Positions 5,006 to 52,497 of a stretch of DNA of 64,000 nt are shown here, piece by piece (position 1 is the stretch's first letter; every line of letters starts with the position of its first letter). The position numbers and the translations under genes were made by a program. This DNA is from Prevotella sp. (GTDB taxonomy: Bacteria > Bacteroidota > Bacteroidia > Bacteroidales > Bacteroidaceae), in assembly GCA_017651265.1 (NCBI GenBank), contig JAGCDO010000010.1, positions 62,001 to 126,000 on the forward strand, written 5' to 3'. A model generated the notes under the pieces. It ran no database searches, was not told where the DNA came from, and saw only the letters and a program-made list of their open reading frames with translations.

Positions 5006-5069
5006 TTTGAACTTTGAACATTGAACATTGAACTTTAACTGTCAACTATCAACTGTCAACTATCAACTA
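5006..5069. repeat. 7-bp tandem repeat array between folA and thyA
   Basis: Nine consecutive heptamers fill the gap. Four TTGAACW units (5007-5034) are followed by one intermediate TTAACTG and four TCAACTR units (5042-5069). The array starts four bases before the folA ATG on the coding strand and its last unit contains the thyA stop codon. The same TCAACTR unit forms a second array at 29797-29845. Confidence 0.9.
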
Positions 5070-5861
5070 TACAGAAACCTCCGCCTTGATATGCGGCCAT
5101 GGATCATAGTTCTCTAATTGGAAATCCTCATACTGGAAATCAAACAGACTCTTCACATCGGGGTTGATGCGCATGGTTGGAAGAGGACGTGGTGTTCTCG
5201 TCAACTGTAGCTTAGCCTGCTCCAGATGGTTCAGATAGAGATGGGTGTCGCCTGTTGTATGGATAAACTCACCAGGTTTCAGACCAGTTACCTGCGCCAT
5301 CATCATCATGAGCAGGGCATAAGAAGCGATATTGAACGGTACGCCTAAGAAGGTATCGGCACTGCGCTGGTAGAGCTGCAGACTGAGTCGGCCATCAGCC
5401 ACATAGAACTGGAACATGGTGTGACAAGGTGGCAAGGCCATTTTGTTTACCTCTGCTACATTCCATGCACTGACAATCATTCTGCGGGAGTTGGGATTGT
5501 TGCGGATCTGATCGAGCACATACTGGATCTGATCGATCGTACCACCGTCATAGTCAGGCCATGAACGCCACTGATGACCATATACAGGACCGAGTTCTCC
5601 ATTCTCGTCAGCCCATTCATTCCAAATTCTCACCCCATGCTCCTGCAGATACTTCACATTCGTATCTCCTTTCAGGAACCACAGCAGTTCGTAGATGATG
5701 GATTTCAGATGGAGTTTCTTGGTGGTGAGCAGCGGGAAACCATCGTCGAGGTTGAAGCGCATCTGGTTTCCAAAGATACTCACCGTTCCTGTTCCTGTAC
5801 GGTCGCCTTTCTGCGTTCCTTCCGTCAGGATGCGGTTTAAGAGGTCTAAGTATTGTTTCAT
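5067..5861 (-). CDS. thyA: Thymidylate synthase
   Basis: At 264 residues this is the standard length for ThyA, which methylates dUMP to dTMP with methylenetetrahydrofolate. It starts [25 protein letters not shown] and has the catalytic Cys in [12 protein letters not shown], then [18 protein letters not shown] and the C-terminal IKAEVSV. It lies 9 bp downstream of the rRNA methyltransferase and is followed by folA, giving a compact minus-strand operon. Its stop codon lies inside the 7-bp repeat array. Confidence 0.98.
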
Positions 5862-5870
5862 ATTGTTTTG

Positions 5871-7271: not shown

Positions 7272-7345
7272 TCCGTTGATGCTTGATGGTGCAAAATTAC
7301 AACTATTATTTTGAAATCATGCACGCATTCATGAAAAACCGTCGG

Positions 7346-8911: not shown

Positions 8912-8986
8912 AGATGAAATGATTGATTGAACTTTTCGCAAAGATACAAAATAAAGATGAATCATCATGAATCTTTTTAAGAAAAA

Positions 8987-9018
8987 CTTGGGAATTCGGG
9001 AAAAATCTTTTAATTTTG
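8987..9018 (+). promoter_or_regulatory. Promoter of the 9060 outer-membrane-type gene
   Basis: TAATTTTG at 9011-9018 matches the -7 consensus and CTTG at 8987-8990 sits 20 bp upstream in the -33 position. The start codon follows about 40 bp later. The divergent esterase has its own -7 box at 8939-8946. Confidence 0.65.
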
Positions 9019-9059
9019 CACGCACATTGCGAAATGAAACTTCTACATACAAAGAAAGG

Positions 9060-10112: not shown

Positions 10113-10194
10113 TTTTTTCATGCTGATGCAACTTTTTGTGTATCATTATCGTCTAACAGACAAAGTAATGAATCAACAAACAAAAGACAAAAGC

Positions 10195-10836
10195 ATGAAA
10201 AGGTATTTAATTACAATCCTATTGGCAGGTGCACTGCTTGCTCCCGTCACGATACAGGCACAGAAGCACCGTCATCACCCCCAGGTGGTGAATCCCACAT
10301 CGGTACCCGATTCCTCTGGTATCGTTGCCTACTCAGACACGACTTCCACCGATACGGCAGGAACATCAACTCCTGTGTATATTGATGAGTACGAAGACGA
10401 TGACGACTTCTTTTTGTCACCCCACGACATGACAGATCTGGTGGGAGGTGGTCTTGGAGCCATATTGGCCGTGATCATGGTCCTCTTCATCGTTCTGGCG
10501 CCCTTTATTTTCGTTGCCTTTATCATCTATCTGATCTTCAAGAACAGGCGTCAACGCTACCAGTTGGCAGAGAAGGCCATGGAAAGCGGACAACAGATTC
10601 CCCAGGAACTGGTACGCACAGAATATCAGAACGACGATTATCTCTGGAAGAAAGGCATCAAGAACGTTTTCTTGGGTATCGGTTTGGCTATCCTGTTCAA
10701 GTGTTTAGGAGCAGATGCGCTTACAGGTATCGGCTGGCTCGTTGCACTCTATGGTGTAGGTCAGGCCGTGATTTCCAAGACCTCATCCCGTAAACGCGAT
10801 AGGTATGATGACAACATCAACCCTCCTGTGGAATAG
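10195..10836 (+). CDS. DUF6249-like membrane protein with signal peptide
   Basis: The start at 10195 gives the signal peptide MKRYLITILLAGALLAPVTI. An acidic linker follows (EYEDDDDFF) and a membrane half with a Gly-rich helix (GGGLGAILAVIMVLFIVLAPF), another helix, a cytoplasmic charged loop and two more hydrophobic segments near the C-terminus. An in-frame ATG at 10168 is possible. Small membrane proteins of this shape sit beside PspC and sigma-factor genes in many Bacteroidales, and DUF6249 is my best recollection of the family name. Function is unknown; an envelope-stress role is suggested only by its neighbours. Confidence 0.68.
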   Translation: MKRYLITILLAGALLAPVTIQAQKHRHHPQVVNPTSVPDSSGIVAYSDTTSTDTAGTSTPVYIDEYEDDDDFFLSPHDMTDLVGGGLGAILAVIMVLFIVLAPFIFVAFIIYLIFKNRRQRYQLAEKAMESGQQIPQELVRTEYQNDDYLWKKGIKNVFLGIGLAILFKCLGADALTGIGWLVALYGVGQAVISKTSSRKRDRYDDNINPPVE

Positions 10837-10856
10837 TCCTTCACACCTCTATTTTG

Positions 10857-10896
10857 CCCATTAACCCCATAATACCCATAAAACCCATTTAACCAT
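10857..10896 (+). repeat. 9-bp tandem repeat directly before the PspC-family start codon
   Basis: CCCA recurs at 10857, 10866, 10875 and 10884, exactly 9 bp apart, and a fifth degenerate unit beginning at 10893 (CCATGG) supplies the ATG itself at 10895. Units read CCCATTAAC, CCCATAATA, CCCATAAAA and CCCATTTAA. A similar unit forms the array before the cellobiose phosphorylase start. Confidence 0.88.
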
Positions 10897-11089: not shown

Positions 11090-11090
11090 G

Positions 11091-12025: not shown

Positions 12026-14086
12026 TTATTCGATAAAGAGGAAACCGTCGTCTTCATCTGATACGGTTTTCTCTTTTTTCTTTGGTGGGTTCTTCAGCTG
12101 TCCATTCTCATCAAACATACCGTAGGTGGTACGTAACACCACAAACTCCGTCCTACGGTTCAGCTGATTACAAATCTCTTCTTTCTCAGGATCGTTCAGT
12201 GCTTTCACGAACTCCTCTGTCAGCACATCGTTCTCCTTCAACCAAGAATACTTCTCTGTTAGTTTCTTCCGGATAGTCTTGGGCTTCTCCACCCCATAGC
12301 CCATGGGGGTGAGTCGTTCTTTAGGAATACCATGTGCGATGAGGTAGTTCACCACCGATTCGGCGCGCCGCTGCGACAGTCGTTTGTTATAGTCGGCACT
12401 ACCCCGATAATCGGCATGGGCACTCAATTCAATCGTTACATTAGGATTCTCGTTCAGCATGCCCACCAGCTCATCCAATGCAGCAGCCGACTCCGGTCGT
12501 AACGTGGCCTTATCGAAATCGTAGAAGATATTATCAATGAGTACGGGAACGCGGATGCTAGCCAAGGGGAACTGCAACGTGTATTCCTCCGACTCCTTGG
12601 CCGGTTTCACGCTGATCTCCTCCCGATGGTTCAAGTAACCCTTACACGAAGCCAGCAGGATATAATCCACGCCCGGCTGCAGTTCCTGTTCAAACGAGCC
12701 GTCACCCTTCACGCTCAGCTTCAGGTTCGTTCCATCGTTACCCACCATATACACCTGAGCGGCAGGCAGTTCATAGCCATCCATCTCGTACACCCAGCCC
12801 TTGAGTGTCTGCACAATCTCTGGATTCTCAAAGCTATAGATATGATCCCAACCACGACCGTCACCGCGGTTCGAGCAGAAATACCCCTTGTTCCGCAGTC
12901 CTTCAAAGGTACAACCGAAGTCATCTCCTTGTGAATTCAAAGGGAAACCAGGATGCTCCAGCTTATATCTTCCGCTCTTATCCACCTTGGCGATGAAGAT
13001 ATCCAGACCACCCATGCCAGGATGACCGTTTGATGAGAAGTACAGATCACCATTAGGACGGAAAGTCGGGAACATCTCATCACCCTCAGTGTTTACCGGA
13101 GCACCAATATTCTCCACACCACCAAGACCCGCAGTTGTCAGTCTGACGCGCCAGATATCCATACCGCCCATGCCGCCAGGCATATCAGAGACGAAGTACA
13201 GCCATTCCCCATCGGGAGAAACAGCTGGATGAGCGAAGCTTGACAGAGTGTCGCGGGAAATCTCCAGTTTGGTGGGCGCACCCCATGCAGCATCCGAACG
13301 GTTCGATGTAACGATGGTAGCATAGCGAGGATAGTCGGGATCGGTAGAACACTGCGTGAGATACATCACCCGCTGGTCGGTTGAGAAGCAACATGCGCCC
13401 TCATCATATTCCGTATTCAGACCGCTTTCAATGGTCTGCGGCTTCGTCCACTTCCCCTTGTCGTCTTTCTGCGAGAAGAAGATATCACCCGCCTTGGCAC
13501 CCGTGATACCACTGACTTCATCGCCCTGTGCCTCCTTGCGGGTGGAAGTAAAGAAGAGCTGATCGTACTCGTCGCCGCAGAGCATCGGACTATAATCAGC
13601 CCTGCGGGAATTGAAGATATCCATCTTCTTCACCGTATAGCGTGATCCTATCTGCTTGATCTCAGGAGCTGTACGCGCCGATTCCAGTCCGTTACGAGCC
13701 AACTCATTATCGGGCAGAGAGTCGAGCACACCCAAGAACTCCTTTTCTGCCTCCTTGTAGTTACCATTGCGAAGCAACTGACGGGCGAAAGAAAGATGGG
13801 TATTGATATCATCCTGTTTGTATCGGATGACATTCCGGTAAGCAGCAATCGCTTTTTGTGAGGAATTGATACGCTCATAGCATTGAGCCATCTTCAGGGC
13901 AATCTGTCCACGACGGTCACGTTCCTTGGAGGAAGTCTTTGAATAAGCCTGCTTGAACTGTTCCGCCGCATCGTAATACTCACCGATGGCGAGGAACTTC
14001 TCACCCTTCTTCATGTTCAGATCGGCACCGCACGAAGAGAACAGGACAACCAACAGGAGTAAAAACAGTGAATACTTGCGCATCAT
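12026..14086 (-). CDS. PorE-like OmpA-family lipoprotein (TPR, PD40 propeller, OmpA domain)
   Basis: A 686-residue lipoprotein with lipobox LFSSC (Cys near 19). TPR-like repeats span about 30-130 (FLAIGEYYDAAEQFKQAY). A WD40/PD40 beta-propeller with YFVSDMPGGMGGMDIWR and YFSSNGHPGMGGLDIF follows, then a carboxypeptidase-regulatory-like domain. The C-terminal OmpA domain has DFDKATLRPESAAALDEL and ELSAHADYRGSADYNKRLS, which binds peptidoglycan. This is the domain order of PorE, the periplasmic anchor of the type IX secretion system. T9SS assignment is inferred from architecture; porQ at 27218 supports a T9SS in this genome. An acidic tail ends the protein. Confidence 0.85.
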   Translation of the reverse strand: MMRKYSLFLLLLVVLFSSCGADLNMKKGEKFLAIGEYYDAAEQFKQAYSKTSSKERDRRGQIALKMAQCYERINSSQKAIAAYRNVIRYKQDDINTHLSFARQLLRNGNYKEAEKEFLGVLDSLPDNELARNGLESARTAPEIKQIGSRYTVKKMDIFNSRRADYSPMLCGDEYDQLFFTSTRKEAQGDEVSGITGAKAGDIFFSQKDDKGKWTKPQTIESGLNTEYDEGACCFSTDQRVMYLTQCSTDPDYPRYATIVTSNRSDAAWGAPTKLEISRDTLSSFAHPAVSPDGEWLYFVSDMPGGMGGMDIWRVRLTTAGLGGVENIGAPVNTEGDEMFPTFRPNGDLYFSSNGHPGMGGLDIFIAKVDKSGRYKLEHPGFPLNSQGDDFGCTFEGLRNKGYFCSNRGDGRGWDHIYSFENPEIVQTLKGWVYEMDGYELPAAQVYMVGNDGTNLKLSVKGDGSFEQELQPGVDYILLASCKGYLNHREEISVKPAKESEEYTLQFPLASIRVPVLIDNIFYDFDKATLRPESAAALDELVGMLNENPNVTIELSAHADYRGSADYNKRLSQRRAESVVNYLIAHGIPKERLTPMGYGVEKPKTIRKKLTEKYSWLKENDVLTEEFVKALNDPEKEEICNQLNRRTEFVVLRTTYGMFDENGQLKNPPKKKEKTVSDEDDGFLFIE
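12042..12076 (+). terminator. Probable terminator of the sigma-factor operon, inside the 3' end of the porE-like gene
   Basis: On the plus strand AAACCGT (12042-12048) and ACGGTTT (12063-12069) form a stem with a 14-nt loop, followed by TCTCTTTTTT. It lies 30 bp beyond the stop at 12012, within the last codons of the convergent lipoprotein gene. Confidence 0.5.
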
Positions 14087-14112
14087 ATCCTATAAACGAG
14101 AGAAAGCACGTT

Positions 14113-15993
14113 TTATTGTGTTCCCCCCTGCTTCGGCTTACTGCGCTTGCCCGATGGTTTGTCGGGCATCAGCGTCACCCTGCGGTTGGAGTTGTCGGCC
14201 AACACCTGATTCACTATGGCAGTAATCTGCTCCTTCAGCTCATTGACAAACTGGGCAGGATCATATTGCTGATGCTCAATATCACGGAGTTTCTTCTCCC
14301 AGATACCTGTCAGCTCACAGCTCTTCAGCAGTTCCTCCTTGATAATGTCTATCAGTTCAATGCCCGTAGGTGTAGCCACCAGGCGTTTCTTCTCCCTGCG
14401 GATATAATTGCGTTTGAACAAGGTCTCGATGATACCCGCCCTCGACGACGGTCGGCCAATACCATTCTCCTTCATGGCAGCACGAAGTTCCTCGTCCTCC
14501 ACGAACTTTCCTGCCGTCTCCATGGCACGCAGCAAAGAAGCCTCGTTATAATAAGGTGGCGGGGTGGTCTGCTTCTCGGTGAGCGTCGGCTCATGCGGTC
14601 CGCTCTCCCCTTTTACGAAAGTAGGCAGTGTCTTCTCCTCTTCCTCCTTCTTCTCTTCATCATTTGTGGGAAGCTGAGACGACGGCTGTGCATATACCGC
14701 TCGCCATCCTGGATCTAGGATTTCCTTTCCCGTAGCCTTGAACTCTATCCCATCAACCTCACCCAACACTGTTGTTGTAGCGTACTTACAATCGGGATAG
14801 AACACGCTGATGAACCGTCGTGCCACCAGGTCATAGACATGCTGTTCCATATTGGTCAAGTTCTGCGGAATCACCCCAGTAGGGATAATCGCATGGTGGT
14901 CGGTCACCTTACTTGTATCGAACACCCGCTTCGTCTTCGGCAGCGGCTTTCCGCCCAAGGGGCGCACCAAGTCAGCATAAGGAGCCGCACCTGCCACTTT
15001 TACCTGATACAGACCGTTCATGATTTGCGGACACTTGGGGTAGATATCGTCTGAAAGGTATTGGGTATCTACACGAGGATAGGTAGTGAACTTCCGCTCA
15101 TACAAAGCCTGAATGGTGTTCAGCGTCATCTCCGCACTCATGCCGTACTTCCTATTACAATCCACCTGCAGCGAGGTAAGATCGTACAACTGTTTCGGCT
15201 GTTCCTTTCCGTTCTTCTTCTCCACCTTGGTCACCGTAAACGGCTTCCCTTGGATGATCTCGAAGCTCTTTTCGCCTTCCTCCTTACTGGTAAACTTTCC
15301 CTTCGTAGCCGTAAACAAGGTTTCACGGTAGATGGTAGAGAGCACCCAGTATGGCTCTGGTTTGAAGTTATCAATCTCCTTCTGACGGTTTACGATCAAG
15401 GCTAATGTGGGCGTCTGCACTCGTCCGATACTCAGCACCTGACGGTTCTGTCCGTATTTCAGCGTATAGAGACGCGTGGCATTCATACCTAAGATCCAGT
15501 CGCCTATCGCTCTCGAAAGACCTGCCATATACAACGGCTGATACTCCTGCTGGTCTTTTAGCTTTTGGAACCCTTCGCGGATGGCCTCATCGGTCATTGA
15601 TGAAATCCACAAACGCTTCACCGGGCATTTCGCCTGAGCCTTCTGCATCACCCAACGTTGGATGAGCTCACCCTCCTGACCGGCGTCACCGCAGTTGATG
15701 ATGCCGTCGGCGGCTTGCATCAACCGTTCAATCACAGCAAATTGCTTCTGGATTCCTTTATCATCAATCAGCTTGATACCAAAGCGTGGTGGAATCATCG
15801 GCAGGGCACTCAAACTCCATGCCTTCCACATCGGCGTATAGTCGTGCGGTTCCTTCAGCGTACACAGATGACCAAACGTCCAGGTCACCTGATATCCGTT
15901 GCCTTCCATATATCCGTCTCTGCTACTGGTAGCCCCGATGATACGGGCTATATCCTTCGCTACACTTGGTTTCTCCGCAATACAAACTATCAT
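14113..15993 (-). CDS. topB: DNA topoisomerase III
   Basis: A 626-residue type IA topoisomerase that relaxes and decatenates DNA through a tyrosine-DNA intermediate. The Toprim domain opens with MIVCIAEKPSVAKDIARIIG and has the acidic NCGDAGQEGELI. The active-site region FTTYPRVDTQYLSDDIYP contains the catalytic Tyr. Also visible are LSIGRVQTPTLALIV and AMKENGIGRPSSRAGIIETL. There are no C-terminal Cys zinc ribbons; the protein ends in a short basic tail, as in other compact TopB proteins. An acidic stretch (NDEEKKEEEEK) lies near the centre. A -33/-7-like promoter is at 16014-16045. Confidence 0.96.
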   Translation of the reverse strand: MIVCIAEKPSVAKDIARIIGATSSRDGYMEGNGYQVTWTFGHLCTLKEPHDYTPMWKAWSLSALPMIPPRFGIKLIDDKGIQKQFAVIERLMQAADGIINCGDAGQEGELIQRWVMQKAQAKCPVKRLWISSMTDEAIREGFQKLKDQQEYQPLYMAGLSRAIGDWILGMNATRLYTLKYGQNRQVLSIGRVQTPTLALIVNRQKEIDNFKPEPYWVLSTIYRETLFTATKGKFTSKEEGEKSFEIIQGKPFTVTKVEKKNGKEQPKQLYDLTSLQVDCNRKYGMSAEMTLNTIQALYERKFTTYPRVDTQYLSDDIYPKCPQIMNGLYQVKVAGAAPYADLVRPLGGKPLPKTKRVFDTSKVTDHHAIIPTGVIPQNLTNMEQHVYDLVARRFISVFYPDCKYATTTVLGEVDGIEFKATGKEILDPGWRAVYAQPSSQLPTNDEEKKEEEEKTLPTFVKGESGPHEPTLTEKQTTPPPYYNEASLLRAMETAGKFVEDEELRAAMKENGIGRPSSRAGIIETLFKRNYIRREKKRLVATPTGIELIDIIKEELLKSCELTGIWEKKLRDIEHQQYDPAQFVNELKEQITAIVNQVLADNSNRRVTLMPDKPSGKRSKPKQGGTQ

Positions 15994-17943: not shown

Positions 17944-17949
17944 TAGAAG

Positions 17950-21070: not shown

Positions 21071-24460
<3,390 letters not shown>

Positions 24461-24602: not shown

Positions 24603-24630
24603 TTGAGAGTTGGCGATCGCCAACTCTCAA
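24603..24630. repeat. 28-bp perfect palindrome centred on GCGATCGC
   Basis: The half-site TTGAGAGTTGGCGA is followed immediately by its exact complement, with no loop. The tatD stop codon (24627-24629) is inside one arm. ATTTTT follows on the plus side. Heptamer-like TTAAGAG and TTAAGAA precede it (24576-24589). It may act as a terminator for the small ORF. Confidence 0.85.
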
Positions 24631-25430
24631 CTATTTTTATGGATCATCAGGAAAACACGAGCTACATTCTCATCGGTAATCTTTTCTACTTGCTCCTGAC
24701 TTACCCCGTAGCTCTCAGCAAGTTTTTCAAGGACAAAGCGTACATAGGCACTCTCGTTACGCTTTCCACGCATTGGAACGGGTGCCATATACGGACTATC
24801 AGTTTCCAACACAAGGCGCTCTAAGGGTACTGCGGCAGGGAGGACTTCAGGCAGGTGCGACTTCTTAAACGTGAGCACACCACCGATGCCCAATACGAAG
24901 CGGTCGAACTGAAGGAAGTCAGCTGCCTCACGTTCATTACCCGTGAAGCAATGGAAGACACCACCCGGCAGTTCCCGCTCATATTGTTTCAGCAGGTGCA
25001 CCATCTCATTCTGTCCCTTACGACAATGGATCATCAGGGGCAGACCTGTTTCTATACTCCACTGCACCTGCTCATCGAACGCAGCCAGCTGTTCTTTCTC
25101 GTATTCACGACTCCAGTAGTAGTCGAGACCCACTTCGCCGATGGCTATCATTGAGGAGTGTGGAGTGAGGAGTGAGGAGTGAGAAATAATATTCCTGATT
25201 CTCTCCAGCTCTTCCCGCCAATTATCCTTCACCTCCTCTGGATGCAGACCGACCATAGGATAGGCAAAGTCGGGATATTCAGCACATAGCTTCATCACGG
25301 CTAAGGAAGAAGAGTAGTCGATGGCGGGAACCAACACTTTACTTACTCCCGCCTCTTTAGCCCGCGCCATCACCTCAACGCGGTCCTCAGCAAATTCCTC
25401 CCCATCCAAATGGGCGTGCGTATCTATCAT
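24627..25430 (-). CDS. tatD: TatD family metal-dependent hydrolase (deoxyribonuclease)
   Basis: A 267-residue TIM-barrel hydrolase of the TatD family, associated with 3'-5' DNA exonuclease activity and DNA repair. Motifs are MIDTHAHLDG (two metal-binding His), VGLHPEEVKD, AIGEVGLDYYW (metal Glu), MIHCRKG, VFHCFTGN and ETDSPYMAPVPMRGKRN. Residues 82-93 (ISHSSLLTPHSS) are encoded by a 7-bp tandem repeat and seem to be an insertion just before AIGEVGLDYY, where I recall homologues having only a few residues. The start overlaps the polyprenyl synthase stop by four bases, so translation is coupled. Confidence 0.94.
   Translation of the reverse strand: MIDTHAHLDGEEFAEDRVEVMARAKEAGVSKVLVPAIDYSSSLAVMKLCAEYPDFAYPMVGLHPEEVKDNWREELERIRNIISHSSLLTPHSSMIAIGEVGLDYYWSREYEKEQLAAFDEQVQWSIETGLPLMIHCRKGQNEMVHLLKQYERELPGGVFHCFTGNEREAADFLQFDRFVLGIGGVLTFKKSHLPEVLPAAVPLERLVLETDSPYMAPVPMRGKRNESAYVRFVLEKLAESYGVSQEQVEKITDENVARVFLMIHKNS
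25153..25187. repeat. 7-bp tandem repeat inside tatD
   Basis: Five heptamers in exact register on the plus strand: GAGGAGT, GTGGAGT, GAGGAGT, GAGGAGT, GAGAAAT. They encode the Ser/Leu/Thr/His-rich insertion at TatD residues 82-93 on the minus strand. Confidence 0.9.
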
Positions 25431-27217: not shown

Positions 27218-28168
27218 ATGAAAAAAGTCATATTTTGCCTCTTCTTCACGCTCGTCAGTGTACTCACATGGGCACAAGACAGTCAGACGGGATACAATTT
27301 CCTGCGACTGCCAGTGAGTGCGCATGCAGCAGCATTAGGCAGTGACAATATCTCCATCATCGAAGACGATCCCTCGCTGATGTTCCATAATCCGGCCCTG
27401 CTCTCATCGGTAAGCGACAAGAGTCTGAACCTGAACTACATGAACTACATGGAAGGAGCCAATGCCGCTAGTGCATCCTTCAGTAAGATCGTCAAGGAGA
27501 AAGCTACGATTGGCGTCATGGCACAGTTCCTGGACTACGGGAAGATGAAGGAGGTGGATGAGCATAACGTGCAAACCGGCGAGTTCTCGGCAAAGGATAT
27601 CGCCATTGCCGGTGCCCTCTCCTATCAGTTGGGCACGAACATCGTGGGCGGTATCACGGCACGGATCATTACGTCGTACATCGGTGACTATAACGCATTC
27701 GCCATGGGAGTTGACTTAGGTGTGAACTACTACGACCCAGAGAAGGAATGGTCGGTATCGGCCACCGTCAAGAACCTCGGTGGAGAACTGGATGCCTTTG
27801 AGGAGGAATACAATAAGCTGCCGCTCGACCTGCAGATCGGTGCCAGCAAACGACTCATCGGATCACCGCTCAGACTGTCGGTCACACTCGTTGATATGAA
27901 CCATCTGGATAAGAAATTCATCCACCATCTCGTGGCAGGTGCCGATGTGATCCTATCACCGCAAATCTACGTGGCCATCGGTTATAACTTCCGCAGGGCC
28001 AGTGAGATGAAGATTGTGAGCAATGACGAGGAGCGAGGCAGTAGCCATGGAGCAGGATTATCCTTAGGCGGTGGTGTTCAGCTGGACCGATTCAAGTTAA
28101 ACGTCGCCTACGGCAAATACCATGTCTCGTCGCATTCCTTACTGGTAAACGTAAGCTACTCGCTGTAA
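27218..28168 (+). CDS. porQ: Type IX secretion system protein PorQ
   Basis: A 316-residue PorV/PorQ-like outer-membrane barrel. It has a signal peptide (ending VLTWAQ) and the family opening TGYNFLRLPVSAHAAALG, DDPSLMFHNPALLS and the terminal barrel strand SLLVNVSYSL. PorQ belongs to the attachment complex of the T9SS that anchors CTD-cargo proteins. A -7 box TATCTTTG is at 27190-27197. cmk follows 30 bp downstream on the same strand, an order I recall from other Bacteroidetes. Its stop codon is the first part of a 7-bp repeat. Confidence 0.9.
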   Translation: MKKVIFCLFFTLVSVLTWAQDSQTGYNFLRLPVSAHAAALGSDNISIIEDDPSLMFHNPALLSSVSDKSLNLNYMNYMEGANAASASFSKIVKEKATIGVMAQFLDYGKMKEVDEHNVQTGEFSAKDIAIAGALSYQLGTNIVGGITARIITSYIGDYNAFAMGVDLGVNYYDPEKEWSVSATVKNLGGELDAFEEEYNKLPLDLQIGASKRLIGSPLRLSVTLVDMNHLDKKFIHHLVAGADVILSPQIYVAIGYNFRRASEMKIVSNDEERGSSHGAGLSLGGGVQLDRFKLNVAYGKYHVSSHSLLVNVSYSL

Positions 28169-28193
28169 GTGACAAGTGACAATAACAAGTGAT
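28167..28193. repeat. Short 7-bp repeat between porQ and cmk
   Basis: AAGTGAC occurs at 28167 and 28174, a degenerate unit at 28181, and AAGTGAT at 28187 (one base out of register). It starts in the porQ stop codon and ends 5 bp before the cmk ATG. Confidence 0.7.
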
Positions 28194-29796: not shown

Positions 29797-29845
29797 TCAA
29801 CTATCAACTGTCAACTGTCAACTATCAACTATCAACTATCAACTA
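29797..29845. repeat. 7-bp TCAACTR tandem repeat between ispH and meaB
   Basis: Seven TCAACTA or TCAACTG units in perfect register (A, G, G, A, A, A, A at position 7). The array fills most of the 83-bp gap between meaB and ispH. It is the same unit and the same orientation relative to minus-strand genes as the folA-thyA array. Confidence 0.95.
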
Positions 29846-30976: not shown

Positions 30977-31011
30977 AAGATGAAAGATGAGAGATGAAAG
31001 ATAAGAGATGA
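30977..31011. repeat. 7-bp RAGATRA tandem repeat between meaB and the DUF1573 gene
   Basis: Five heptamers in perfect register: AAGATGA, AAGATGA, GAGATGA, AAGATAA, GAGATGA. The array fills all but a few bases of the 43-bp gap. Confidence 0.92.
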
Positions 31012-37744: not shown

Positions 37745-37844
37745 CACTCTTTAACGATTTATTTGGATATACTAAGAAACTTTAGCAAAGGCACCTGTTT
37801 GTTTACAAAAAAAACATGAAATAATGGAATAAATGCAGATTTAT

Positions 37845-37875
37845 TTTGTATTGTGCTCGCTTATTCGTACCTTTG
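37845..37875 (+). promoter_or_regulatory. Promoter of the cellobiose phosphorylase gene
   Basis: TTTG (37845-37848) and TACCTTTG (37868-37875) are 19 bp apart. Transcription would start just before the 9-bp array that forms most of the leader. Confidence 0.7.
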
Positions 37876-37892
37876 CATAATGGAATAAAACC

Positions 37893-37937
37893 CATATCAA
37901 ACCTATTAAGCCCATTAAGCCTATTAAACCCATTAGA
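37893..37937 (+). repeat. 9-bp tandem repeat in the leader of the cellobiose phosphorylase gene
   Basis: Five 9-bp units in register: a degenerate CATATCAAA, then CCTATTAAG, CCCATTAAG, CCTATTAAA and CCCATTAGA. The ATG starts 2 bp later. The unit matches that before the PspC gene and has the same orientation relative to the gene. Confidence 0.9.
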
Positions 37938-37939: not shown

Positions 37940-40453
37940 ATGACTAACAAAATGTATGGACACTTCGATGATGCCGCCCGAGAATACGTCATCACCGACC
38001 CGCAGACTCCCTGGCCCTGGATTAACTATCTGGGCAACGAAGATTTCTTCTCACTGATCTCCAACACCGCTGGTGGCTATTCCTTCTTCAAGGATGCCAA
38101 GTTCCGCCGTATCACCCGCTACCGCTATAATGGCGTACCGATGGATAATGGTGGCCGCTATTTCTACATCAACGACGGTGGCATTGTCTGGAACCCTGGT
38201 TTCAAGCCCTGCAAGACACCGCTCGACTTCTACGAATGTCGCCACGGTATGAGCTACACCCGCATCACCGGACGTAAGAACGGCATTGAAGCCAGCGTTC
38301 TCTTCTTCGTTCCTCTGAAGAAGTGGTGCGAAGTTCAGAAACTGACACTGAAGAACACCACTGGCGAAACCAGGAAGTTCAAACTCTTCTCGTTTGCAGA
38401 GTGGTGCTTATGGAACGCGGCTACCGACATGGAGAATTTCCAGCGCAACTTCTCTACGGGTGAGGTTGAAATAGACGGCAGTGTGATCTATCATAAGACA
38501 GAATACAAGGAACGCCGTAACCACTTTGCGTTCTATAGTGTGAATACGCCCATCAACGGTTTCGATACCGACCGCGAGAGTTTCATCGGACTGTACAATG
38601 AGTTCTCTTGTCCTGACTGCGTGATGGCTGGTCAGCCCAAGAACAGCGTGGCACATGGATGGAGTCCCATCGCTTCACATTATATAGAAGTGGAACTGAA
38701 AGCCGGTGAGAGCAAGGATTTCATCTTCGTGCTGGGATATGTTGAGAACGAGCAGGAGGAGAAATACGAGAAAGAAAAAACACCCGGTCTGATTACATCT
38801 CTTGACAAGCTCGACCGTACCTTTATCAATAAGGCCAAGGCTCGTGCCTGCATCAAGGAGTTCGACACCACCGAGAAAGTGGACGCTGCTTTCAAAGAGC
38901 TCAATGCTTACTGGGATGACCTGCTTGACCGCTACAGCGTGAAGAGCGGAAACGAGAAGCTCGACCGTATGGTGAACATCTGGAACCAATACCAGTGCAT
39001 GGTGACGTTCAACTTCTCCCGTTCAGCCAGCTTCTTTGAGAGCGGCATCGGACGAGGCATGGGCTTCCGCGACAGTAATCAGGATCTGGTGGGATTCGTT
39101 CATCAGATTCCCAGCAGAGCCCGTCAGCGCATCATCGACATTGCCTCCACCCAATTCCCCGACGGCGGATGCTACCATCAGTATCAGCCGCTCACCAAAC
39201 GGGGTAACAACGATATCGGCGGCGGCTTCAACGACGACCCGATGTGGCTCATTTTCGGGACGGTGGCCTATATCAAAGAGACAGGCGATTTCTCCATTCT
39301 TGACGAACCCGTGCCCTGGGATAACGAACCGGGTACCGAGGTATCACTGTTCGAACACCTGCGCATCTCGTTCAACCACGTCATCGAGAACCTGGGTCCG
39401 CATATGCTCCCGCTCATTGGTCGTGCCGACTGGAACGACTGTCTGAACCTGAACTGTTTCTCATGGGATCCCAACGAGAGTTTCCAGACTACCGAAAACA
39501 AGACGGAAGGCTCCAAGGCTGAATCGCTGATGATTGCCGGTTTGTTCGTGGTGTGCGGCAATGACTATGTGGAACTGTGCAAGGAACTATCTTGTAAAGC
39601 TAGTGAAACTAGTCAAACTAGCCATTTCACTGCTGAAGCTGATCGGGCACAAAAAGCAGTGGATGCCATGATTGCCGCCGTGAAGAAGCATGGTTGGGAT
39701 GGAGAGTGGTATCTCCGTGCCTATGACTTCTATGGCAACAAGATCGGCTCACACGAAAACGAGGAAGGAAAGATCTTTATCGAGAGTCAGGGCTGGTGCA
39801 CCATGGCGGGTATCGGCATGGAAGAAGGTATGGTGGATAAATCGCTCGATGCATGCAAGAAGTATCTCGACTCTGAGCATGGCATGGTGCTTAACAATCC
39901 TGCCTTCACCACCTACCATGTGGAGATGGGAGAAATCTCCAGCTATCCAGCTGGTTACAAGGAAAATGCAGGTATCTTCTGTCATAACAACCCGTGGGTG
40001 ATCATTGGTGAGACCGTTGCCGGACGTGGTAACGATGCATGGGAGCACTATGTGAAGATCTGTCCGGCATTCATTAAAGACCAGACCTTGCACAAGGTAG
40101 AGCCGTATGTCTACTCCCAGATGGTGGCAGGAAAGGATGCTGCCAAGCCCGGTGAAGGTAAGAACAGCTGGCTCACCGGTACGGCTGCCTGGAACTGGTA
40201 CACCATCACCCAATTCATTCTGGGTATCAAGCCTGATTACAACGGACTGCTCATCAATCCGTGCTTACCTGCTACCGCTAAGGAATACACCGTGAAACGC
40301 AAGTTCCGCGGGGCAGAATACATCATCACCGTGAAGAATCCCGATGGGGTGCAGAAAGGTGTCAAGAGCATCACCTTTGATGGCAAGGTCGTTGAGGGCA
40401 ACGTGATTCCCGCCACCGAGGGCAAGCACACGGTGGAAGTCACCTTGGGATAA
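37940..40453 (+). CDS. Cellobiose phosphorylase, glycoside hydrolase family 94
   Basis: An 837-residue cytoplasmic phosphorylase that splits cellobiose with phosphate into glucose-1-phosphate and glucose. The N-terminus ([20 protein letters not shown], then PWINYLG) and [18 protein letters not shown] match what I know of Cellvibrio/Cellulomonas cellobiose phosphorylases. The catalytic Asp is near residue 497 in [12 protein letters not shown]. Near 553-562 a 9-bp repeat encodes KASETSQTS, an insertion of roughly a dozen residues between helices. No signal peptide. The leader holds the CCYATTAAR array. The linked acyl-CoA ligase could be co-transcribed but is separated by a palindromic array. 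Confidence 0.94.
39596..39622. repeat. 9-bp ACTAGT-type tandem repeat inside cellobiose phosphorylase
   Basis: GCTAGT at 39599, ACTAGT at 39608 and ACTAGC at 39617, exactly 9 bp apart with spacers AAA, GAA and CAA, encode Lys-Ala-Ser, Glu-Thr-Ser, Gln-Thr-Ser. Confidence 0.85.
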
Positions 40454-40481
40454 AGGTATAAAGATATGTTATCCGAAATAA

Positions 40482-40540
40482 TTCCCACGTTGGGAACAAA
40501 TTATTCCCAACGTGGGAACAAATCGTTCCCAGCTTGGGAA
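40482..40540. repeat. Three palindromes at 22-bp spacing (TTCCCA-N3-TGGGAA)
   Basis: Palindromes at 40482-40496, 40504-40518 and 40526-40540 have 6-bp perfect arms TTCCCA/TGGGAA and centres CGT, ACG and GCT. Spacers are CAAATTA and CAAATCG. The 22-bp period puts all three on one DNA face. They lie between the phosphorylase stop and the ligase start. Confidence 0.92.
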
Positions 40541-40564
40541 TAAAATCAATATAACTAAGAATCC

Positions 40565-42661: not shown

Positions 42662-45263
42662 ATACCAGTCCTTCGCCGAAGCTATCGATGATGATAGCTT
42701 TATCACGGTTCACATCACCAGCCAACAGTTTCTTTGAGAGGTCGTTCAGCACATAGTGCTGGATGGCCCTTTTTACTGGTCGTGCACCGAACTCCGGATC
42801 GTAACCCACCTCTGTCAGGAAATCAATGGCTGGCTGTGTCCACTCCAATTGGAGATCCTGCTCCTTCAGCATTCTCTGCACCTGTTTCATCTGCAGCGTC
42901 ACCACATCGGCAATCTCTTGCTGTGTCAGTGGCAGGAACATGATGGTTTCGTCGATACGGTTCAGGAACTCAGGACGGATGGTCTGCTTCAACATCGACA
43001 TCAACTGAGCACGCAAGGATGACAGTTGAGCATCACGATTATTGGTCCCTTCCATCTGTTCAACGGTCTCGCGAATCAGCTGACTACCCAGGTTACTGGT
43101 CATGATAATGATGGTGTTCTTGAAGTTCACCGTACGTCCTTTATTGTCAGTCAGACGACCGTCATCCAACACTTGCAACAGGATGTTGAACACATCGGGA
43201 TGTGCCTTTTCAATCTCGTCGAAGAGTACCACGCTATATGGCTTATGGCGCACGGCCTCTGTGAGCTGACCGCCCTCGTCGTAGCCGATATATCCCGGAG
43301 GTGCACCAATCAATCTACTCACTGTATGCTTCTCCTGATATTCGCTCATATCGATACGTGTCATCATACCCTCGTCGTTGAACAGGTATTCTGCCAAGGC
43401 CTTGGCCAGCTCCGTCTTACCTACACCGGTGGTACCTAAGAAGATGAACGAGGCGATGGGACGTTTCGGATCATGCAAGCCTGCTCTGCTACGGCGCACA
43501 GCATCGCTCACAGCCGTGATAGCCTCATCCTGTCCGATGACACGCTTGTGCAGTTCCTCCTCCAGATGCAGCAGTTTCTCCTTTTCGCTCTGAAGCATGC
43601 GGGTTACGGGGATGCCCGTCCAGCGGCTCACCACCTCAGCGATATCATCAGCCGTCACCTCTTCACGCACCATACCCATACCGTTCTGAGCCGATGCCAG
43701 TTGCTTCTGAATCTGTGCGATATCCTCTTCGAGAGCCTGTAACTTGGAGTAGCGGATCTCGGCCACCCGTTCGTAGTTACCCTCGCGTTCAGCCCTTTCC
43801 GCCTCGAAACGCAGCTGTTCCATCTCCTGCTTATCCTGCTGAATCTTATTCACCAGGTTACGCTCGTTCTCCCATCTGGCACGGAAAGCGTTCTCTTTCT
43901 CGCGAAGCTCGGCAATCTCCTTGTCGAGCTGCCCCAGCTTACTAGTAGAACTAGAATCACTAGTATTACTAGTCTCTCTAGATATCGCAGAGCGTTCAAT
44001 CTCCAACTGCGCCAGCTGACGGGAGATATCATCCAGTTCCTCAGGCACACTGTCGCGTTCCATACGCAACTTGGCAGCAGCCTCATCCATCAGGTCGATG
44101 GCTTTATCCGGCAGGAAACGGTCTGATATATAACGTTCAGAGAGTTTCACTGCAGCGATACAAGCATCATCCTGAATACGCACCTTATGGTGGTTCTCGT
44201 AGCGTTCCTTCAGTCCACGCAGGATACTGATGGCACTGAGTTCATCCGGCTCATCCACCATCACGGTCTGGAACCTACGCTCCAACGCCTTATCCTTCTC
44301 GAAGTATTTCTGATACTCGTTCAGGGTAGTGGCACCAATGCTTCTCAGTTCACCACGTGCCAAAGCAGGCTTCAGAATATTGGCAGCATCCATGGCTCCT
44401 TCACCTGCACCCGCTCCAACCAGTGTATGGATCTCATCGATGAACAGGATTACACGTCCATCACTTTTCGTCACCTCGTTGATGACACTCTTCAGACGTT
44501 CCTCGAACTCTCCTTTATATTTTGCACCGGCCACCAAGGCACCCATATCGAGCGAGAACACCTGCTTGTCCTTCAGGTTCTCGGGTACGTCACCACGTAC
44601 GATACGCTGCGCAAGACCTTCCACAATGGCGGTCTTACCCGTTCCTGGCTCACCGATTAAGATAGGATTGTTCTTGGTACGACGGGAGAGAATCTGCAGG
44701 ATACGTCGAATCTCATCGTCACGACCGATCACGGGGTCAAGCTTTCCTGCTCTAGCCTCCTCCACGAGGTTCTTCGCATACTTGCTCAGACTCTGGAAGT
44801 TCTCGTCACCGCTCATGCTTTGTACCTTCTGTCCCTGACGCAGTTCCTGTACAGCTTTCATCACATCGTTGCTGTTCATGCCCGCATCTTTCAAGATACG
44901 ACTCGCTGTGGAGTTTACCTCCAAGAGCGCCAACAGGATCGGCTCGATGCTCACAAACTCATCACCCAGTTGTTTCGAGTGATCCATTGCCTTCATCATC
45001 ACCTCGTTGGTCTCCCTGCTCAGGTATGGTTCACCCCCCTGTACTCGGGGAAGATGCTGGATCTCATTATCAATCAGTGTACCCACATGAGCAGCATTCA
45101 CCCCCAGCTTCTGGAAGATGAAGTTCACCACGTCCTTTCCTTTCTCCATTACACCTTTCAGCAGATGTACAGGTTCAATGACCTGCTGACCGTTCTGCCG
45201 CGCCGTGTTCACGGCACTTTGTACCGCTTCCTGCGCTTTGATCGTAAAATTCTCTAATGTCAT
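42651..45263 (-). CDS. clpB: ATP-dependent disaggregase chaperone ClpB
   Basis: An 870-residue Hsp104/ClpB that pulls proteins out of aggregates with DnaK. Domains are the N domain (1-145), AAA1 with Walker A GEPGTGKT (about 205) and Walker [10 protein letters not shown], the coiled-coil M domain (about 405-535), AAA2 with [19 protein letters not shown] and [16 protein letters not shown], and the C-terminal sensor part. M-domain residues 428-442 ([15 protein letters not shown]) come from a 9-bp repeat. They lie between two coiled-coil helices where I recall homologues having a short charged turn. AGGAG precedes the ATG. It converges on the ligase gene with an 11-bp overlap. Confidence 0.97.
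43938..43985. repeat. 9-bp ACTAGT tandem repeat inside clpB
   Basis: ACTAGT, ACTAGA, ACTAGT, ACTAGT and TCTAGA begin at 43941, 43950, 43959, 43968 and 43977, exactly 9 bp apart, with different three-base spacers. On the coding strand they read as [15 protein letters not shown]. Confidence 0.92.
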
Positions 45264-47586: not shown

Positions 47587-47666
47587 GAATAGTAATAACG
47601 AGTAATTTATTTCTACTAGTAAGTAACAAAAGAGAATAGAAAACAACAACAAACATCAATAAAATT

Positions 47667-49517: not shown

Positions 49518-49567
49518 TAAAGCTGCATAGTCTATCGTCGTATATGACGATCTTAACAACAAACAAT

Positions 49568-52474
49568 ATGAACAAAAGAACCGTTTTATCAACCATCTTG
49601 CTTGCACTTGGCATTCTCTTCGTGCAGGCCAAGGATTACAAGTACACCACCGTACCCGGTGACTTGATGAACACACGTATCTACACCCTTGACAACGGAC
49701 TGACAGTCTATCTGTCGGTTAACAAGGAGAAACCGCGTATCCAGACATACATCGCCGTGCGCACAGGTTCCAAGAACGACCCTGCCGAGACCACGGGTCT
49801 GGCACACTACCTGGAGCACCTGATGTTCAAGGGAACGGATAAGTTCGGTGTGACCAATCCTGTGGCCGAGAAGGAGTACCTCGACAAAATCGAACAATGC
49901 TATGAGGATTACCGACTCATGAAGGATCCCGAACAACGCAAGGTGAAATACCACGAGATCGATAGTCTGTCACAACTCGCTGCTCAGTATTTCATTCCCA
50001 ACGAGTATGATAAACTGATGGCAGCCATCGGAGCGGAAGGAACAAATGCCTATACAAGTAATGATGTGACCTGCTATACGGAGAATATTCCCGCAAACGA
50101 GATTGACAACTGGGCAAAGATTCAGGCCGACCGTTTCCAGAATATGGTCATCCGCGGTTTCCACACAGAGCTGGAAGCTGTGTATGAAGAGTATAATATC
50201 GGACTGACCTCTGATGTTCGCAAGCTCTTTGCTACCATCTGTAAGATGCTCTGGCCCAACCATCCCTATGGACTGCAGACCACCATCGGTACGCAGGAAC
50301 ACCTGAAGAACCCGTCGATTGTCAATATCAAGAACTATTTCAACAAATGGTATGTGCCGAACAATGTGGCTGTCTGCATGGCAGGCGACCTGGATCCTGA
50401 CAAGACCATTGCCATTATCGACAAGTATTTCAGCAGCTGGAAACCTGGTGCTGACGTAAGACAGCCGGTATTCCCTGCCTTGCCCCCACTGACTGCTCCC
50501 AAGGATACGACTGTTGTAGGTCAGGAAGCAGAACAGGTATGGGTGGCCTGGCGCGCCAAACAGGCTAACGCACTGCAGGCTGACACCTTACAACTGATGG
50601 AGGACGTGCTTAATAATGGACGGGCGGGTCTCTTTGATCTGGATCTGAACCAGACCATGAAGGTGCAGCGGGCTAACGGTGGCTGCGAGCTATTGCGTGA
50701 CCACGGTGCCTTCTTCCTGATGGGAACACCGAAACAAGGACAGAGTCTGCAGGAAGTACGGTCGTTGATGCTGACGGAAATCGATAAGCTGAAGAAGGGT
50801 GACTTCCCAGACAACCTGCTGCCCAGCATTATTAATAACATGAAACGTCACCACTACGAGTTGCTGGAGAGCAATGAAGGACGGGCCGACCATTTTGTTG
50901 ATGCTTTCATCAACGAGGTGGAATGGAAGCAAGTCGTGGAACGTATCGACCGCATCTCAAGAATCTCAAAGAAGGAACTGGTTGATTTCGCTAACCGTTT
51001 CTTCACGGAAGGTTATGTCACTGTGTACAAGAAACAAGGTATCGACTCTCTTCAGAAGAAAATCGACAAGCCTGCTATTACCCCTATTCAGGCAAACCGC
51101 GACCAGATGAGTCAGTTTGTAAAGGATATCCAGAATGCACATGTGGAGCCTATACAAGCTAAGTTCGTGGATTACCAGAAGGATCTCACCACCTTGGAGG
51201 TGAAAAAAGGTCAGCCGCTGTACTATGTAAAGAATAACACCAACGGACTCTTCAACCTGGTTTACCGCTATGAATTCGGACAGAGTGCCGACAAGAGGTA
51301 TGACATAGCTTCCGACTATATCAGCTTCCTGGGAACAGCAAAGATGTCAGCTGCCGACATCGTACAACGGTTCTATGAGTTGGGCTGCGACTGGGATATC
51401 AGTGTAGGCGAAGAATCCCTCACTGTTAGTTTGGGAGGTCTGAGCGAAAACATGTCAACTGCTATGTCGCTGTTGGAGGATCTCTTCCTGAATGCCAAGG
51501 TTGACAAGGAAGCTTACGATCAACTGGTTGACCTCACACTGAAAAGTCGCGAGGACGCCAAGAAGAGTCAGAGAACCTATTTCGAATACCTGTATGCATA
51601 CGGTGCTCAAGGTCCTCGCAATGCCTACCGAGATATCTTGACGGAACAGCAGTTGAAACAGACTGATCCACAGGTGTTCATCGACCTGCTCAAGAATCTG
51701 TGGAAGTATCAGCACAGTGTGCTCTATTATGGTCCGATGGATGAAAAGAGCGTGGTGGCAACAGTCAAAAAGATCCACCGCACCGCCAAGAAGCTGAATA
51801 GCGTACCACAGAACGACCCATATCTGAACCAACTGGCTAACAAGAATGAGGTTCTTCTGGCCCCCTATGATGCCAAGAACATCTATATGCGTATGTATCA
51901 TAATGAGGGACGCGACTGGAATCCAGAAGAGTCTGCCGTCAGGGTTCTGTTCAATGAATACTTCGGAGGTGGTATGAATGGTATCGTCTTCCAGGAGATG
52001 CGCGAGACGAGAGGACTTGCCTATAATGCATATGCCAATTACTCTCGTCCCAGTGTCAAGGGACGCAAGGAGTCGTTCATGACGCATATCATCACTCAGA
52101 ACGATAAGATGATGGACTGTATCGGGCACTTCCAGGAAATCCTCAATGAGATGCCCGCCAGCGAGACAGCCTTCCAGATTGCCAAAGATGCCGTTACGAA
52201 GCAGTTGGCCAGTCTGCGCACCACCAAGATGAGCATTATCTACAGTTATCTGAACGCCAAACGTTTGGGTATTGACTACGATCTGAACGGCAAGACATTC
52301 CAGGATCTGCCGAAGTTGACCCTGCAAGATATCATCAATTTCGAGAAGAGACAGGTAGCCAACAAGGATTATCGCTACATCATCCTTGGCGACGAGAACA
52401 ATCTCGACATGAAGGCTCTGGAGAAGATGGCCCCGGTGAAACGACTCACCACAGAGGAAGTCTTTGGTTATTGA
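49568..52474 (+). CDS. M16 family zinc metalloprotease (insulinase-like), periplasmic
   Basis: A 968-residue protein with signal peptide (MNKRTVLSTILLALGILFVQ), starting at 49568 rather than the upstream ATG at 49544. The first M16 half carries the inverted zinc motif HYLEHLMFKGTDKF (HxxEH), and the distal metal-binding Glu in ELEAVYEEYN. A second half (LYYVKNNTNGLFNLVYRY onward) lacks the zinc motif, giving the usual active/inactive pair. It degrades small peptides. The fumarase gene begins 47 bp downstream. Confidence 0.94.
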   Translation: MNKRTVLSTILLALGILFVQAKDYKYTTVPGDLMNTRIYTLDNGLTVYLSVNKEKPRIQTYIAVRTGSKNDPAETTGLAHYLEHLMFKGTDKFGVTNPVAEKEYLDKIEQCYEDYRLMKDPEQRKVKYHEIDSLSQLAAQYFIPNEYDKLMAAIGAEGTNAYTSNDVTCYTENIPANEIDNWAKIQADRFQNMVIRGFHTELEAVYEEYNIGLTSDVRKLFATICKMLWPNHPYGLQTTIGTQEHLKNPSIVNIKNYFNKWYVPNNVAVCMAGDLDPDKTIAIIDKYFSSWKPGADVRQPVFPALPPLTAPKDTTVVGQEAEQVWVAWRAKQANALQADTLQLMEDVLNNGRAGLFDLDLNQTMKVQRANGGCELLRDHGAFFLMGTPKQGQSLQEVRSLMLTEIDKLKKGDFPDNLLPSIINNMKRHHYELLESNEGRADHFVDAFINEVEWKQVVERIDRISRISKKELVDFANRFFTEGYVTVYKKQGIDSLQKKIDKPAITPIQANRDQMSQFVKDIQNAHVEPIQAKFVDYQKDLTTLEVKKGQPLYYVKNNTNGLFNLVYRYEFGQSADKRYDIASDYISFLGTAKMSAADIVQRFYELGCDWDISVGEESLTVSLGGLSENMSTAMSLLEDLFLNAKVDKEAYDQLVDLTLKSREDAKKSQRTYFEYLYAYGAQGPRNAYRDILTEQQLKQTDPQVFIDLLKNLWKYQHSVLYYGPMDEKSVVATVKKIHRTAKKLNSVPQNDPYLNQLANKNEVLLAPYDAKNIYMRMYHNEGRDWNPEESAVRVLFNEYFGGGMNGIVFQEMRETRGLAYNAYANYSRPSVKGRKESFMTHIITQNDKMMDCIGHFQEILNEMPASETAFQIAKDAVTKQLASLRTTKMSIIYSYLNAKRLGIDYDLNGKTFQDLPKLTLQDIINFEKRQVANKDYRYIILGDENNLDMKALEKMAPVKRLTTEEVFGY

Positions 52475-52482
52475 TCAATAAA

Positions 52483-52497
52483 ACTAGAATCACTAGT
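52483..52497. repeat. Two 9-bp ACTAGT-type units before fumarase
   Basis: ACTAGA at 52483 and ACTAGT at 52492, 9 bp apart, in the 46-bp gap between the M16 stop and the fumarase start. Same unit family as the in-frame arrays. Confidence 0.6.

Follow-up and report, generated by a model that had tools for sequence, protein, structure and literature searches.

The 64,000-nucleotide stretch of Prevotella sp. DNA considered here (the window; part of contig JAGCDO010000010.1 of a 3.16-Mb draft genome in 69 contigs, called the source genome below) contains short tandem arrays with periods of 7, 9, and 22 bp, among them a class in which a palindromic hexamer, ACTAGT, recurs at a 9-bp step with three variable bases between copies (ACTAGT-N3). 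The initial annotation drew attention to these arrays, and their units lie where it placed them, including those reused at distant positions: TCAACTR at 5042 and 29797, CCCATTAAR-like units at 10857 and 37893, and ACTAGT-N3 at 22457, 39599, 43941, and 52483. It was also right that arrays lie in frame in conserved genes, as three of the four ACTAGT arrays in the window do; the array at 52483 consists of two units, one of them imperfect. The nearest relatives found are G094 (locus L049; Prevotella sp. isolate Tb.RUG.501), which is 96-97% identical to the source genome across the 18 kb compared, and G151 (locus L072; uncultured Prevotella sp. isolate RUG047), which is 92-95% identical. The ACTAGT features of the window are as follows.

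22457..22489, minus strand: ACTAGT-N3 array of four units, in frame in a GH2 beta-galactosidase gene (21071-24304); four units in G094, five in G151.
39599..39622, plus strand: ACTAGT-N3 array of three units (GCTAGT, ACTAGT, ACTAGC), in frame in a GH94 phosphorylase gene (37940-40453), coding for ASETSQTS.
43941..43982, minus strand: ACTAGT-N3 array of five units, in frame in clpB (42651-45263); the G094 and G151 versions have drifted.
52483..52497, no strand assigned: ACTAGT-N3 pair (ACTAGA ATC ACTAGT) in the 46 bp separating the genes for an M16 peptidase and a fumarase.
47615..47620, no strand assigned: lone ACTAGT within the spacer 47587-47666.

Tandem Repeats Finder (minimum score 30) returns 36 rows for the window, with period-7 rows at 5005, 5037, 25152, 28167, 29797, 30977, and 47664, period-9 rows that include 10857, 22456, 37905, 39600, and 43941, and a 22-mer row at 40476. 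Not every period-9 row belongs with the arrays: those at 27432, 31891, and 58046 are coding sequence of the same length in two relatives. Exact 8-base self-matches start 38 times at lag 7 and 15 times at lag 9, compared with 1.1 and 0.8 in 30 dinucleotide shuffles (z of 25 and 13, respectively), and self-match at lags 14 and 21 is also raised; the shuffles disregard codon structure, and other lags that are multiples of three are raised too.

The pair ACTAGTNNNACTAGT (ACTAGT-N3-ACTAGT) occurs 34 times in the source genome, 31 times in G094, and 36 times in G151, with no match to the reversed control in any of the three. Among 60 genomes of the genus, the source genome included, ten carry the pair and 12 have a control match (one or two apiece); at least six pairs are present in six genomes, namely G050 (47), the source genome (34), G007 (22), G040 (12), G059 (8), and G018 (6). 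Three units in a row are found in three of 393 genomes sampled from 206 genera of the order, again with the source genome among them (16 in the source genome, two in G396, and one in G262), and one genome has a single control match. A scan of the GTDB collection gave at least 117 ACTAGT-type stretches, of which 16 that were not Bacteroidales or not identified were set aside; the 101 kept come mostly from rumen or other ruminant-gut samples, as judged by titles without a tally. Together with 20 stretches from the source genome, G007, and G050, these loci form a gut Bacteroidales set that yields 130 distinct arrays with at least two spacers each; a few of the array loci are orthologues of one another.

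Spacers are all different in 84 of the 130 arrays, mixed in 43, and identical in three, whereas in the set-aside loci outside the Bacteroidales set they are identical in 12 of 16, the pattern of plain slippage. The earlier argument that simple slippage would copy the spacers is supported by this contrast with unrelated bacteria, where spacers are mostly identical. A phage origin is unsupported: among the viral-collection matches listed (at least 123 arrays), spacers are identical in 94, all different in 25, and mixed in four. Copying of the whole unit, which defines a simple tandem repeat, does not describe the ACTAGT-N3 arrays; the heptamer and CCCATTAAR arrays come close to it. Hexamer triplets with differing spacers, counted in 863,961 bases partly picked for ACTAGT, have a gap of 3 in 156 cases, a gap of 1 in 58, a gap of 2 in 13, and gaps of 4 to 15 in zero to seven. 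Between units within an array (18 arrays of the source genome), hexamers differ at 108 of 1020 positions and spacers at 171 of 321; this five-fold ratio, compared with about two-fold between orthologues, indicates that spacers were already different at array formation or that hexamers have been renewed by unit turnover.

Adjacent spacers are identical in 41 of 386 cases; a global shuffle predicts 8.4 and shuffles within arrays predict 45.9, so an array's spacers are related to one another, with no special similarity between neighbours. None of the 386 adjacent pairs are reverse complements (7.7 expected globally, 1.8 within arrays), and fold-back copying of loops is therefore unsupported. This result bears on a reading of the arrays as conserved small RNA or DNA stem-loops with conserved arms and a free triloop. 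Any adjacent hexamer pair can indeed make a 6-bp stem with a 3-nt loop, and the 22-mer has the same form, but Watson-Crick pairing is kept in one of 127 deviant closing pairs and eight of 183 deviant outer pairs, which is not above shuffles, and the spacers bear no trace of fold-back copying; stem-loops are disfavoured and appear very improbable. At the edges of arrays the outermost base agrees with the consensus in 147 of 246 cases and the inner base in 215 of 246, a pattern that would fit either unit turnover or a CTAG-bounded unit.

Gene calls for array placement come from a simple codon-usage gene finder, and individual calls may err; the L277 array at 2971, for example, is probably intergenic. 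Placement covered 130 arrays, with seven near sequence ends omitted. Coding arrays read in the Thr-Ser-X frame (frame 0) in 52 cases, in the X-Leu-Val frame (frame 2) in two, and never in the stop-containing frame (frame 1). Protein-level selection for flexible Thr/Ser linkers would produce such a bias (52 of 54 coding arrays), but more arrays (76) lie outside predicted genes, and the Thr-Ser-X frame is expected from tolerance alone, because each unit contains a stop in one of its three frames; given the intergenic arrays, linker selection is disfavoured and would be the least probable explanation considered here. The intergenic arrays occupy codirectional (62), convergent (11), and divergent (three) spacers, which contribute 51.6, 10.1, and 13.1 kb of intergenic bases to the placement set, so that divergent spacers are under-used. 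A number of arrays start at the upstream stop codon, whose TAG falls within ACTAGT. In the window the arrays of beta-galactosidase, GH94, and ClpB are read as (Thr-Ser-X)n; elsewhere arrays lie in genes for threonine synthase, valyl-type and alanyl-tRNA synthetases, a PurL-type enzyme, a GldL-like protein, a ferredoxin-type protein, and a DUF6057 protein. No common function is evident among the ten array-bearing genes identified.

Comparison with wider orthologues covered ClpB, threonine synthase, and alanyl-tRNA synthetase (AlaRS). Loci were read from the best 30 of 59 genomes matched for ClpB (source genome included), the best 30 of 116 for threonine synthase, and the best 30 of 98 for AlaRS, of which 23 were readable and seven without a readable open reading frame (ORF) were dropped. 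At the position of the ClpB array the loop is short in 24 of 29 orthologues, and G040 has TCCGGA-type units where the source genome has ACTAGT units. The threonine synthase loop, judged by eye, holds ACTAGT units in the source genome, a drifted version in G094, CTAG units in L337, and a relic in L318; AMTCAGART period-9 units occupy it in L313, L316, L317, and L325, heptamers in L329 (GGTGAGW) and L335 (GAGGAGA), and most remaining loci are shorter. One AlaRS loop likewise hosts different repeat families across species, including TCTAGA-type units in L395 and L414. A lag-9 self-match of 15/18 is reached by six of 53 threonine synthase and AlaRS slots, compared with none of 1915 background windows in the same open frames; both genes were chosen for carrying arrays, two of the six hits may be owed to that choice, and those of the source genome and G094 are common by descent. 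Strong lag-7 self-match occurs in two of the 53 slots and seven of the 1915 background windows.

Arrays are common to close relatives at mostly 92-99% flank identity, yet their units change, and the copy-number differences and fixed step anticipated in the initial annotation are both supported by whole-unit changes in G094 and G151. With flanks 98-99% identical, one array has four units in the source genome (L276) and seven in G094 (L351), a difference of whole 9-bp steps; at L279/L358/L368 the source genome is one unit longer; and the array at 22456 has four, four, and five units in the source genome, G094, and G151, respectively. The unit family itself can differ at one place, as at the first of two non-ACTAGT period-9 arrays in the window.

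37893..37935, no strand assigned: CCCATTAAR period-9 array ending 4 bp 5' of the GH94 start; in G151 the position is occupied by an ACTAGT-N3 array.
10857..10888, no strand assigned: CCCATTAAY/CCCATAAAA period-9 array, 20 bp past a stop codon.

At 37893 the source genome and G094 have CCCATTAAR units, which are not palindromic, and G151 has ACTAGT units; the divergence spans about 100 bp, so replacement by recombination is possible. Separately, a segment some 50 bp long that lies upstream of GH94 (37828-37880) has matches at a few dozen positions of G094 and G151; it includes a TTTG element resembling a promoter and may represent a shared promoter family.

Selection on spaced sites had been offered earlier as one cause of the pattern. 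On a binding-site reading, the hexamers would be sites for a nucleoid or regulatory protein, kept by selection, with spacers free. A kept hexamer, a free spacer, and an exact period all suit this proposal. The four window arrays and that of threonine synthase were compared whatever the relative carried; with unequal lengths excluded, and with several comparisons sharing the source sequence, changes affect 15 of 171 hexamer positions and ten of 63 spacer positions (p = 0.15). When ascertained pairs are added, hexamers changed less than spacers (18 of 429 and 15 of 168, p = 0.029), which leaves room for a selected part among the ACTAGT arrays. The unascertained set gives no clear support to binding sites; against them stand arrays inside the ORFs of ClpB, tRNA synthetases, a PurL-type enzyme, and threonine synthase, the different unit family at 37893 in G151, and the three of 76 intergenic arrays held by divergent spacers. 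That the ACTAGT arrays are selected binding sites is disfavoured and judged unlikely; such selection may apply to the 22-bp family described below.

Several other palindromic units share the geometry. TCCGGA-N3-TCCGGA, counted in eight chosen genomes, has 16 matches in G040, seven in G059, four in G018, and one in the source genome (controls 0 to 1), with at least four matches in three of the eight and a control maximum of 1. The TCTAGA-type AlaRS units of L395 and L414 led to the prediction of a TCTAGA-N3 family. Matches to it occur in 24 of the 60 genus genomes, with at least five in 16, compared with control matches in 14 genomes and at most four; its counts include 64 in G007, 52 in G033, 51 in G049, and 200 in G009. 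The source genome has two matches against three for the control and so is not above control. A 320-kb sample of G009 contained one CTAG pair and no TCTAGA pair, so the 200 matches are probably clustered. CTATAG-N3 is represented by one locus, in G059. The 22-mer of the window is real, as described earlier, but belongs to a separate multicopy family.

40476..40544, no strand assigned: 22-bp period array, three units of TTCCCA-N3-TGGGAA plus a 7-nt linker.

TTCCCA-N3-TGGGAA with a 7-nt linker of variable sequence has 128 matches in the source genome, 88 in G094, and 121 in G151, against controls of 1 to 3 across the three (3 in the source genome). The interval between neighbours is exactly 22 in all 13 seen, linkers and centres vary, and none of five clusters examined lies within a predicted gene; this placement, with the dimer-site geometry of the unit, suits binding sites. 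In both G094 and G151 an unrelated segment of 575 bp takes the place of the spacer that holds the window array (40454-40545). Two further families were observed: a GTCCGAC + 2-nt family of period 9, an odd-centred palindrome (L068:3436, L005:1635, GACCTGTC-like, and L100:3971), and a period-8 family in G040, with octamer arrays ATCGAAAC / GTTTCGAT at L292:6600-6690 and 13890-13990.

The ACTAGT arrays are probably, though by no means surely, one family of dispersed insertional micro-arrays maintained by hexamer-anchored whole-unit turnover. In this class a palindromic hexamer would recur exactly every 9 bp, the three intervening bases being free, and species would differ in their unit families (ACTAGT, TCTAGA, TCCGGA, one CTATAG locus, and non-palindromic 7-, 8-, and 9-mers). 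Arrays would persist where insertion is tolerated, that is, in codirectional spacers, often right at the stop codon, and in flexible protein loops, where (ACTAGTNNN)n would read Thr-Ser-X, free of stops. An existing array would gain or lose whole units through mispairing anchored on the hexamer; the frame would be kept, units with an intact hexamer would keep propagating, spacers, which are not needed for pairing, would drift and shuffle, and the outer edges would decay first. The genome-wide excess, exact step, variable spacers, and extra sequence in three protein loops back this reading, as do the unit-step length change, above-chance spacer copying within arrays, edge decay, and different families at one place. 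New arrays would derive from older ones, with hexamer-anchored mispairing as the presumed drive.

Several points weigh against turnover of this kind. Simple unit turnover should even out spacers and hexamers alike; the hexamer-anchored drive is an assumption. The birth event of an array was not seen in the genomes compared, and no empty ACTAGT site was found among the source genome, G094, and G151, where 13 of 16 source arrays have an orthologous stretch and all of these carry an array; empty sites could hardly show, because most stretches were chosen for the ACTAGT pair of the relative, the window arrays and threonine synthase having been compared regardless of it and three of the 16 arrays having no compared stretch. 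None of 29 ClpB slots, that of the source genome included, reaches the lag-9 threshold. In 600 kb from G040 and G059, two of the 19 period-9 exact triplet arrays listed have palindromic units, and palindromy as a strict rule for period-9 units is rejected. The excess over shuffled sequence at lags 7 and 9 predicted in the initial annotation holds in the window, but lag-9 runs per 100 kb (7.8) are about as frequent as in G003 (8.3) and G016 (7.5), which lack an ACTAGT pair; a lag-9 excess as such is therefore not specific, and the phenomenon is one of recurrent unit families rather than a general lag-9 excess. The patchy occurrence (six of 60 genus genomes and three of 393 order genomes) would also suit a dedicated, horizontally acquired machine. 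The lag-9 background, control tallies, and ascertainment do not separate the readings.

Such a machine would be a nuclease, recombinase, or polymerase with a palindromic target that writes the arrays, giving dyad arms, a free N3 centre, a fixed step, and species-specific specificity. Several unrelated palindromes have a common N3 geometry (CTAGT-N3-ACTAG, TTCCCA-N3-TGGGAA), CTAG is better preserved at array edges than the outermost hexamer base, spacers look diverse from birth on, and occurrence is patchy, all of which an enzyme could explain. No linked gene is known, none having been searched for; 41 of 386 adjacent spacer pairs point to partial copying, and non-palindromic units predominate among the period-9 arrays of G040 and G059. 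Outside arrays, CTAG sites in the window fall well below expectation (12 observed, 76 expected), as they do in G059 (14 observed, 518 expected), and avoidance is weaker in G003 (62 observed, 113 expected); however, strong avoidance is also seen without ACTAGT pairs, in G006 (2 observed, 80 expected) and G016 (1 observed, 54 expected). The ratio of observed to expected CTAG is 0.18 in array-bearing loci and 0.19 in 23 genus genomes without the pair, which rejects a link to CTAG avoidance and argues against a simple restriction-site connection. A dedicated writing enzyme is a minority possibility and rather unlikely. In its broader form, which seems doubtful, rumen Bacteroidales would have an unrecognised, species-specific DNA-writing activity that places dyad-symmetric arms on either side of a free trinucleotide, with a constant step of 9 bp for ACTAGT, TCTAGA, TCCGGA, and perhaps CTATAG, and of 22 bp for TTCCCA/TGGGAA; if real, it would build new spacers between genes and new loops in essential proteins.

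The window also carries heptamer arrays.

5005..5070, no strand assigned: two heptamer arrays side by side (TTGAACW, then TCAACTR), flanked by codirectional genes and reaching into the predicted gene ends; different heptamers there in G094 and G151.
25152..25183, minus strand: TGAGGAG heptamer array within ORF 24627-25430; octamer-like repeats in G094, short in G151.
28167..28192, no strand assigned: AAGTGAC heptamer array over a predicted stop codon; G094 and G151 have AATTGAY-like heptamers at this position.
29797..29845, no strand assigned: TCAACTR x7 between codirectional genes; x2 in G151, none in G094.
30977..31011, no strand assigned: AAGATGA heptamer array in a codirectional spacer of 43 bp; G094 has a longer array and G151 a shorter one.

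Four of the five sites tested (5005-5070, 28167, 29797, and 30977) lie between codirectional genes and end near the next gene; that at 25152 is inside an ORF. Heptamers also turn over between relatives, with seven copies, two, or none at 29797 in the source genome, G151, and G094; the unit at 5005 differs among relatives (TCAACTR, TGAACTW, TCAATTY), as does that at 28167. TCAACTN x3 has 40 matches on each strand, for which a reversed control is uninformative since TCAACT reads the same backwards. In G059, G040, and G006, heptamer arrays are found as inverted pairs about 60-110 bp apart around a hairpin (L298:13590-13720 and 14110-14310, L294:19280-19420, L305:8930-9160, and L303:19460-19600); the two L298 copies have the inner loop in opposite orientations and resemble a small mobile hairpin with heptamer ends. 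The window also contains a TPP riboswitch at 55919-56015, above the gathering score, and a tRNA-Ser (gga) at 1657-1745.

Rickettsia palindromic elements are single stretches of palindromic DNA, roughly 100 bp in length, inserted in frame within housekeeping genes, where they form tolerated loops. The arrays described here are likewise inserted in frame in conserved genes, in ClpB, threonine synthase, and AlaRS loops, but consist of 9-bp units with differing spacers instead of one long hairpin. CRISPR arrays combine repeats with unique spacers tens of bases long and with cas genes; here the repeats are 6 bp and the spacers 3 bp, within ordinary genes. Long simple sequence repeats (LSSRs) have units of 5-11 nt, most commonly heptamers, favour multiples of three within genes, and occur in scattered taxa (Mrazek et al., 2007, as reported in PMC4679880). 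The present arrays match them in these respects and also vary by whole units between close relatives (4 vs 7; 4/4/5; 7 vs 2 copies), but LSSRs repeat the whole unit, whereas ACTAGT-N3 arrays repeat six of nine bases and reuse one palindrome at many loci with different spacers. TAACTGA heptamer direct repeats are found in Beggiatoaceae, Cyanobacteria, and five Bacteroidetes, patchily over distant taxa, in spacers near start codons or over stop codons; some related strains have a shorter spacer lacking the repeats, and the distribution suggests horizontal transmission by a mechanism that is not evident (MacGregor, 2015; PMC4679880). The window heptamers are of this known kind, and four of the five sites tested lie in similar short spacers near the start of the next gene; they differ in unit (TCAACTR, TTGAACW, AAGATGA, AAGTGAC, and TGAGGAG, none of them TAACTGA), in the presence of several unit families per genome, and in having different units at one place between relatives. 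The BrickBuilt miniature inverted-repeat transposable element (MITE) of Porphyromonas gingivalis is a multicopy intergenic element of tandem 23-nt repeats without spacers, with leader and tail subunits and inverted ends (PMC4596501); the window 22-mer is also intergenic, tandem, multicopy, and from Bacteroidales, but has variable 3-nt centres and 7-nt linkers. PARCELs are tandem coding repeats of 25 residues with dyad symmetry, in sporadic taxa, for which within-genome shuffling has been suggested (PMC2996958); the ACTAGT-N3 arrays are similar in dyad symmetry, tandem coding repeats, and sporadic taxa, but have 3-residue units in ordinary enzymes instead of 25-residue domains. A high density of short repeats in Bacteroidota was reported in a 2025 survey (PMC12699852).

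Literature searches on ACTAGT in Bacteroidales, variable-spacer palindromic units, and Prevotella repeats, which left preprints and most subscription papers uncovered, returned nothing on this class. The claim that no such system had been described therefore stands for the ACTAGT-N3 class within the literature searched and falls for the heptamers, which are of a kind described in Bacteroidetes among others. The ACTAGT-N3 class looks like an apparently undescribed way for tiny repeats to arise and spread. The differing spacers act as a natural barcode on each copy, and the source genome, G094, and G151 span useful divergences, so that birth, copying, and decay of arrays can be separated. That 3-residue units recur at one and the same loop in essential enzymes, alanyl-tRNA synthetase among them, makes them a visible source of protein length variation.

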